Assembly (NCBI GenBank): GCA_025062045.1
Contig: JANXAF010000006.1
Location: 326-64,325, forward strand
Length of the DNA stretch: 64,000 nt
Reading direction: 5' to 3'
Source of the DNA: Thermodesulfobacteriota bacterium
GTDB lineage: Bacteria > Desulfobacterota > Syntrophorhabdia > Syntrophorhabdales > JANXAF01
Part shown: positions 52,191 through 53,896 of the stretch, piece after piece
How the letters are laid out: the number at the start of each line of letters is the position of its first letter
Position numbering within the stretch: position 1 is the first letter of the stretch
Notes under the pieces: model-generated
Seen by the model: only the letters and a program-made list of their open reading frames with translations
Told to the model about the DNA's origin: nothing
The model's database searches: none
Program-made: the position numbers and the translations under genes

Positions 52191-52680
52191 TCGGACTATC
52201 CCAATCCTTGCCATCGTTGGTTGGTCAAAGAGTGGAAAAACTACGTTTCTAGAAAAACTAATTCGAGCCGCAAAAGAGAAAGGCCTAAAAGTGGGAGCGG
52301 TCAAGCATACGCATCACTCGTTAGAGAACGAAGATAAAGACACCCAAAGGCTTGCAAATGCAGGAGCTGATCCGGTACTTTTAGTCTCCGATAAGTTTCT
52401 TTTAGTCACAAAAAAGACGGAACGAGAACTTTCCCTCGAAAAAATCGTCGATGATTTTTTAGGTGATGTGGATATCGTTCTTGCGGAGGGTTTCAAAGGT
52501 TCGAAATTTCCAAAGATAGAGGTTTACTCCGAAAAGGAAGGAGCCCTCTTTAAAGAAGATCCCTATATTTTGGCAGTTGTGGCTAAAGAGAAACTCGATA
52601 CCGATCTTCCGGTTTTTGGACCAGATGACGTAGAAAGGGTTCTCGATTTTATAATCCGTAAATTCTCTTTAGCTCCTTGA
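52183..52680 (+). CDS. mobB: Molybdopterin-guanine dinucleotide biosynthesis accessory protein MobB
   Basis: MobB is a GTP-binding adapter that supports MobA in making the dinucleotide form of molybdenum cofactor. The 165-residue protein has the P-loop VGWSKSGKTTFLEKL (about 9-23), VKHTHHSLENEDKDTQRLANAG and LAEGFKGSKFPKIEVY, all family hallmarks. The ATG at 52183 overlaps the NUDIX stop by eight bases. An in-frame start further upstream lies deep inside that gene. Its 3' end overlaps the convergent LpxC gene by 32 bases. It may serve enzymes like the molybdenum hydroxylase at 1.4-4 kb, although that class often uses MCD cofactor. Confidence 0.92.
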   Translation: MPNRTIPILAIVGWSKSGKTTFLEKLIRAAKEKGLKVGAVKHTHHSLENEDKDTQRLANAGADPVLLVSDKFLLVTKKTERELSLEKIVDDFLGDVDIVLAEGFKGSKFPKIEVYSEKEGALFKEDPYILAVVAKEKLDTDLPVFGPDDVERVLDFIIRKFSLAP

Positions 52681-53896
52681 CTAAAGCTATGTTTTCTAAG
52701 TGTCCGGTGTGTCTTGCCGTTATTTTTCCTATGACTGGTCTATTGAGAAGGTAAAGGTCACCTAGTAGATCGAGGATTTTGTGCCTTACAAATTCATCCT
52801 CGTATCTTAGCTTAGTATTTATGACCTTTTCTCCATCTAAAAGGATCACGTTGTTTATCCTTCCTCCCTCCCCAAAACCCATCCTCGAAAGCATCTCAAA
52901 GTCACTTAGAAAACCGTAAGTCCTTGACGGTGCTATCTCTTTTACGAATTCGTCAAGCCCCCCTTTGAAGACGTAATTCTGATAGTTTATAGGGGGACGG
53001 CTCTCGATGGTAAAATCTACAATAAGTTCATCGGACGGCTCTATCGATAGGTATTTCCTTTGCGGCAAGTTATCGAGTACGAAAGGTTCCTTTACTACTA
53101 TCGGTTCTACATGGGCGGATTGTTCTACAATCCCAGCTTCCTGAAACTTTTCGCATATTTGAGCAGCAGAACCATCAAGAATAGGGACCTCTTCGGAAAC
53201 CTTAACTAATAGGTTTGTAATGCCGAACATATGACAGCTCGCCATGAGATGTTCTATGGTCCTTACTATACAGTTTCTTCCTTTAAGAGAAGAAGCGTAA
53301 CCGATAGAGTATACGTGATCGATAAAGGCAGGTATCCTCTCCCCATCTGGCACATGTTCAAATATTATGCCTGTGTTTTCAGGCATGGGAAGAAGAATCA
53401 TCCCGGTTTTCACTCCTGTGTGTAAACCGTGACCGTAAAGCACTATGCTTTTGCCTATTGTCTTTTGAATGAAGGTTCTTTCGCCTGTAAGGATGGACTT
53501 CATTTCGAAGGACGTTTCCTTAAGCGGAGTCTCCTTTGAATCGCTAAGACACCTCCCTATAACCTCAAGCACTTTTTCCAAGGATAAAGGCTTTTCGAGG
53601 AAGTCTATCGCTCCTTTCTTAACAGCCTCTACGGCTGTTGAGATATTACCGTGCCCGGATATAACGACAACCTTAGCTTCCTTATTTACCCTCTTAATCC
53701 TCTTTAGCACCTCTATCCCATCCATCTCCGGCATCCAAATATCCAGTATCACGAGATCTGGATTTTCCCTTTCATAAACGGCAATCCCTTTCTTTCCGTC
53801 CTCCGCTTTTAAAACTGAAAAGCCCTCATCCTCTAATATCGAGGAAAGACTTTCAAGTATGTCTTTTTCGTCGTCAATTATGAGAATCTTTTGCAT
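52649..53896 (-). CDS. lpxC: Fusion of a response-regulator receiver domain to LpxC deacetylase
   Basis: LpxC removes acetate from UDP-3-O-acyl-GlcNAc, the committed step of lipid A synthesis. This 415-residue protein has an N-terminal receiver domain (1-118) with acidic pocket D8/D9, phosphoacceptor D52 (VILDIWMPEMDG), S80 (VVISGHGN) and K102 (FLEKPL), most like NtrX/NtrC receivers. A 25-residue linker leads to a complete LpxC domain (about 144-415). Its catalytic residues are E215-H216 (TIEHLMAS), H372 and D376 (RHKILDLLGD) and H399 (TGHLEN). The ATG at 53896 directly begins the receiver. No histidine kinase gene is adjacent. Phosphorylation probably tunes lipid A synthesis; this is inference. 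Confidence 0.95.
   Translation of the reverse strand: MQKILIIDDEKDILESLSSILEDEGFSVLKAEDGKKGIAVYERENPDLVILDIWMPEMDGIEVLKRIKRVNKEAKVVVISGHGNISTAVEAVKKGAIDFLEKPLSLEKVLEVIGRCLSDSKETPLKETSFEMKSILTGERTFIQKTIGKSIVLYGHGLHTGVKTGMILLPMPENTGIIFEHVPDGERIPAFIDHVYSIGYASSLKGRNCIVRTIEHLMASCHMFGITNLLVKVSEEVPILDGSAAQICEKFQEAGIVEQSAHVEPIVVKEPFVLDNLPQRKYLSIEPSDELIVDFTIESRPPINYQNYVFKGGLDEFVKEIAPSRTYGFLSDFEMLSRMGFGEGGRINNVILLDGEKVINTKLRYEDEFVRHKILDLLGDLYLLNRPVIGKITARHTGHLENIALVKELKRIYGL

Follow-up and report, generated by a model that had tools for sequence, protein, structure and literature searches.

Response regulators with an enzymatic output, such as CheB, PleD, and RpfG, harbor a receiver joined to a catalytic domain, and all of these are signaling enzymes. 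LpxC, the committing enzyme of lipid A synthesis, carries its FtsH degron in a C-terminal tail in E. coli; the LpxC of Aquifex has neither a long tail nor a receiver. In Rhodobacter and Caulobacter, the NtrYX system reduces the level of lpxC transcript (PMC7240162, PMC12444477), and the response regulator DVU2934 of Desulfovibrio vulgaris has lpxC as its single target (PMC3333781).

The locus described here encodes RR-LpxC, in which an NtrX-type receiver and LpxC form one protein. It shares with the NtrYX systems of Rhodobacter and Caulobacter the kinase family and the target pathway, but their control is transcriptional, and indirect in Rhodobacter, whereas RR-LpxC has its receiver within the enzyme. 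DVU2934 is likewise a response regulator dedicated to lpxC and comes from a related group, but it is a DNA-binding regulator of an unfused lpxC. As in CheB, PleD, and RpfG, a receiver is fused to an enzyme, although the enzyme is in this case biosynthetic and serves the outer membrane. The LpxC-FabZ family (NF009667) also fuses LpxC to another domain, but the partner is a metabolic enzyme and is found at the other end; membership of that family was ruled out for RR-LpxC by a score of 183 against a cut-off of 465. The protein is of a known kind, a response regulator with enzymatic output, and it is the kind of output that is new. No description of a receiver-LpxC fusion was found in the literature searched, a body that mostly leaves subscription reviews, a main one on response regulator classification included, outside its coverage. 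The terms "receiver", "response regulator", and "fusion" do not occur in a 2025 review of lipid A regulation (PMC12444477). Automatic listings of the architecture in domain databases may exist.

The gene lies within the window, which is the whole stretch of 64,000 nucleotides that was analyzed, and is made up as follows.

52649..53896, minus strand: rr-lpxC, a single gene for a fusion of an NtrX-type receiver and LpxC, 415 aa
53558..53887, minus strand: receiver domain, residues 4-113 (Pfam PF00072 and phospho-switch residues)
53468..53557, minus strand: linker, residues 114-143, of which 120-138 are probably disordered (low model confidence)
52667..53467, minus strand: LpxC domain, residues 144-410, without a C-terminal tail (Pfam PF03331)

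The initial annotation, which was made from the sequence of the window, had described a single frame encoding a receiver and a full LpxC, and this description is borne out. The frame has an ATG start and no internal stops, and Pfam places Response_reg at residues 4-113 (E 8.7e-33) and LpxC at residues 144-410, covering profile positions 1-267 of 268 (E 6.8e-77). The LpxC half passes the curated cut-offs of both PF03331 (259 bits against 27) and TIGR00325 (217.8 against 187.25), and resembles solved LpxC structures (2jt2, TM 0.94 by target length). The receiver had been called NtrX/NtrC-type; among the NCBIfam models the best is indeed that of NtrX (NF051870, residues 1-121, E 2e-39), with the NtrC model well behind (E 6e-24). 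The ten residues that had been named, D8, D9, D52, S80, and K102 in the receiver and E215, H216, H372, D376, and H399 in LpxC, are all present at those positions. From these residues the protein can be assigned the acid pocket, phospho-Asp, Thr/Ser switch, and Lys of a receiver together with the Zn ligands and catalytic E/H/D of LpxC. AlphaFold2 predicts two domains, for the most part with confidence (mean pLDDT 86); linker residues 120-138 have low confidence, so the interface between receiver and LpxC was not read from the model.

Compared with NtrX, RR-LpxC has in common the receiver sequence, the kinase-contact residues, the ancestry, and, in many relatives, a position directly after ntrY. 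It differs in that neither the sigma54 AAA+ nor the Fis HTH domain of NtrX was found in the window's protein by Pfam domain search, and in that the output is a lipid A enzyme in place of sigma54-type gene control. Compared with LpxC, it retains the whole catalytic domain, the catalytic residues, and the fold, but has an N-terminal receiver, no C-terminal tail, its own branch in the LpxC tree, and residues specific to that branch such as K232, C248, and G165.

RR-LpxC is the sole LpxC of its 1.76-Mb genome, which is 97% complete; a second, unfused lpxC, which had been suggested as something to look for, was not found there. The gene stands alone. On one side it is transcribed away from a phoH, 7TM-HD, ybeY, lnt series; on the other it converges on a mobB-like gene and shares 32 bases with the 3' end of that gene (neighboring gene names were read from translations). 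As the initial annotation had stated, no kinase gene is adjacent, and no HisKA kinase was found on contig C6, which carries rr-lpxC.

The NtrX origin of the receiver is supported by a tree in which fused receivers and NtrX receivers form one group with 99% support, although the tree has few columns and its inner forks are weak. The genome's other receivers fall outside this group, except for one long-branch hybrid-kinase row with a partial receiver match, and the window's receiver is by sequence assignable to the NtrX group. In unfused relatives, for example G049 and G058, lpxC, DUF4390, ntrY, and ntrX lie in a row. In G048, G224, G309, G417, and G328, the gene that comes after ntrY encodes receiver, AAA+, and LpxC (RR-AAA-LpxC). 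The AAA+ domain of these proteins is without GAFTGA, the sigma54-contact motif, and its Walker-B glutamate is replaced; in several of them a Fis-like remnant precedes LpxC. Among the NtrX proteins of unfused relatives, GAFTGA is kept in several and absent in some, and the DE pair is kept in nearly all that include the region. NtrX orthologues of at least 500 bits are found in seven genomes (G049, G050, G051, G053, G057, G058, and G059), all of which have an unfused lpxC. None of the fusion genomes has such an orthologue, their best matches reaching at most 436 bits, and no ntrX was found in the window's genome.

The combination of receiver, degenerate AAA+, and LpxC is apparently an ntrX-lpxC fusion with a decayed transcription module, and the initial annotation's picture, in which an enzyme takes the place of the AAA+/DNA-binding output, is seen almost literally in these intermediates. 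For the simplest path we infer that ntrX joined lpxC, after which the transcription module decayed and was lost, possibly more than once; the direction would be decay after fusion and not gain. RR-LpxC would then be a descendant of NtrX but not an NtrX, its receiver being kin while AAA+ and HTH are lacking.

The occurrence of the fusion was surveyed with a profile of 17 fused proteins, run against whole genomes. In the window's phylum the fusion is found in about 90 of 395 sampled genomes, taking RR-LpxC and RR-AAA-LpxC together: receiver-LpxC in approximately 71, and a frame of the RR-AAA-LpxC type, 630-820 aa in length, in approximately 20 more. These two counts come from match range and frame length; nine distinct proteins of the RR-AAA-LpxC type were then read directly. 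A second, small phylum matches at fused-branch level in 38 of 46 genomes, including three with the LpxC part alone matched, of which the two that were checked are truncated at contig ends, and one with the LpxC end cut, and the Nitrospirota sample contains the fusion in 12 of 296. The same query, at a cut-off that scored in other phyla, found no fusion in 399 sampled Pseudomonadota. A Binatia-centered sample consisted largely of window-phylum genomes already surveyed and was left out of the totals. In all, the fusion is present in three GTDB phyla and in well over 100 genomes. Within the window's order, almost all genomes whose lpxC frame is full-length have one of fused length, and direct reading showed the fusion wherever it was applied. 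Syntrophorhabdales MAGs, at 65% identity, are among the nearest named relatives.

On the LpxC tree, the fused forms, with or without AAA+, make up one side of a single branch with 100% support, and the unfused LpxC proteins of the window's phylum lie across it. Fused and unfused states are separated by one change, and the fused branch is shown to have one origin. The proposed check for the architecture elsewhere on the phylogeny has in this way returned three phyla and one supported branch. Two genomes, G246 and G288, each hold an unfused lpxC plus a divergent RR-LpxC paralogue. The unfused lpxC of G246 adjoins ntrY, and its paralogue groups with one RR-LpxC from the Nitrospirota sample (100% support), a placement that suggests horizontal spread of a second copy.

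An NtrY-like kinase had been guessed as the partner, and the gene neighborhoods agree. At 12 loci ntrY lies directly upstream of RR-LpxC (13 with the inclusion of a locus where the contig contains just the end of the kinase), as it does at five distinct RR-AAA-LpxC loci; the ntrY-adjacent loci span lineages across the window's phylum and include two Nitrospirota-sample genomes. No adjacent kinase was seen for 41 distinct RR-LpxC genes in the loci read that had 1.4 kb or more of upstream sequence. The window's genome contains one NtrY-like kinase, at G000:C11:53280-55355, so that ntrY, which adjoins the gene for NtrX itself, is here on a different contig from rr-lpxC. This kinase has HAMP, PAS, HisKA, and HATPase domains and an intact histidine box, with a marginal NtrY_N region (22.9 bits against a cut-off of 23.2). 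Its gene sits between a YfiH-like gene and smpB-tmRNA. No receiver gene was found beside it, and this lone ntrY stands in a genome from which ntrX is gone. Because ntrY is apart from the fusion gene in the window's order, the pairing rests on the other lineages. An ad hoc measure of NtrX-likeness at kinase-contact positions, which is supporting and not decisive, gives 40.2 for the fused receiver, 27.2 for the genome's next receiver, and 32-49 for NtrX proteins themselves.

We consider it likely, with a probability of about 0.7, that RR-LpxC is an NtrX-derived response regulator with LpxC as its output, and that NtrY phosphorylates D52 and so controls LpxC directly. In the proposed course of events, the ntrX gene would have become joined to lpxC, and the sigma54 AAA+/Fis-HTH module would have decayed and later been lost, leaving the receiver directly on LpxC. 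The membrane kinase NtrY would phosphorylate D52, and the phosphorylated receiver would alter its alpha4-beta5-alpha5 face, changing its pairing or its docking on LpxC via a flexible tether; this change may then set the amount of UDP-3-O-acyl-GlcNAc that is deacetylated. Since the fused proteins have lost the C-terminal tail, it is suggested that the switch stands in for tail-based proteolysis. Given the repression of lpxC by NtrYX in alphaproteobacteria, we slightly favor a reduction of LpxC output on phosphorylation. Direct control of the enzyme had been put forward in the initial annotation. Of the elements of that proposal, the fusion, the NtrX-type receiver, and the guess of an NtrY-like partner are supported, the last by evidence that was not available to it; the effect on enzyme activity is one that we infer, the sequence results being compatible with control of catalysis, of stability, or of membrane location, and with either sign.

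Several other explanations bear on the same observations. The phospho-switch residues D8, D9, D52, S80, and K102 are identical in 68 of 68 distinct RR-LpxC proteins, as are the catalytic E215, H216, H372, D376, and H399, and all ten are invariant columns in a 17-sequence alignment that reaches down to 43% identity. In the RR-AAA-LpxC proteins D8, D9, D52, and K102 are retained, and the switch position is T or S. That the receiver is an inert leftover of gene fusion, through which LpxC is not regulated, is very improbable when the five residues have been kept in every protein while the AAA+ of relatives decayed. The two apparently receiver-less members of the fused branch that were checked, G766 and G737, are both cut by contig ends. 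A sequencing or assembly artefact, or a frameshift joining two genes, is ruled out for practical purposes by the same architecture in well over 100 genomes, whose recurrence, gene order, and divergence exclude the copying of one error. The conservation of the receiver residues shows selection on phosphorylation, and not on its effect on LpxC. Two further explanations concern that effect.

It is possible, although somewhat doubtful, that the receiver sets the lifetime of LpxC and not its rate, with phosphorylation hiding the protein from, or presenting it to, FtsH, Lon, or ClpXP with an adaptor. The tail that is missing from the fused proteins, which end approximately 3 aa past the domain where unfused LpxC has a tail with a median of 29 aa, would fit such a role, but its loss by itself reveals no new degron, and the LpxC of Aquifex, also without a long tail, has no receiver. 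Proteolysis is the means by which LpxC is controlled in E. coli (PMC12444477). Rather unlikely is a receiver that serves mainly as a docking tag, binding NtrY and bringing LpxC to the inner membrane until phosphorylation releases it. Consistent with this are the membrane kinase with which it is paired in many lineages, the probably flexible linker of variable length, and the proposal that the LapB homologue in Neisseria recruits LpxC to the membrane (PMC12444477); docking alone, however, does not require all five phospho-switch residues to be invariant. The linker between the domain models ranges from 23 to 65 aa among relatives, and this wide variation counts against one rigid signaling path. 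Positions conserved in fused LpxC and different in unfused LpxC (K232, C248, G165, Y224, P323, and T397) may, as a guess, mark a candidate receiver-docking face.

Under direct phospho-control of LpxC, the preferred reading, the committing enzyme of lipid A synthesis carries its own phosphorylation switch, inherited from NtrX, in the window's bacterium and many relatives, and the control exerted by a sensor kinase is probably on the enzyme and not on its gene. With the proposed regulator built into the enzyme and a kinase partner named, two proteins suffice for a direct test in vitro. A rare sequence record of the passage from transcription factor to regulated biosynthetic enzyme is also provided by the RR-AAA-LpxC forms. 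More speculatively, several phyla might have swapped transcriptional NtrYX envelope control for direct phospho-control of LpxC, such that NtrY would sense the state of the envelope and set lipid A flux within seconds, and the degenerate AAA+ forms, as a transitional switch, could continue to bring LpxC together in rings that bind ATP.

Some further gene arrangements were observed around lpxC and ntrY. Several other members of the window's order share similar ntrY surroundings (selA, rluD, yfiH, ntrY, smpB). DUF4390 (PF14334) separates lpxC from ntrY, or immediately precedes ntrY, in genomes with unfused lpxC and with RR-AAA-LpxC, and is a candidate envelope partner of NtrY. G175 has similar parts without a fusion, in the order kinase-receiver gene, standalone gene for a 124-aa receiver, unfused lpxC, and ntrY, the standalone receiver gene being immediately before lpxC. 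Finally, in a Magnetococcales record (Pseudomonadota), ntrY lies shortly downstream of an unfused lpxC, which indicates that the linkage of lpxC and ntrY is older or wider than the fusion.
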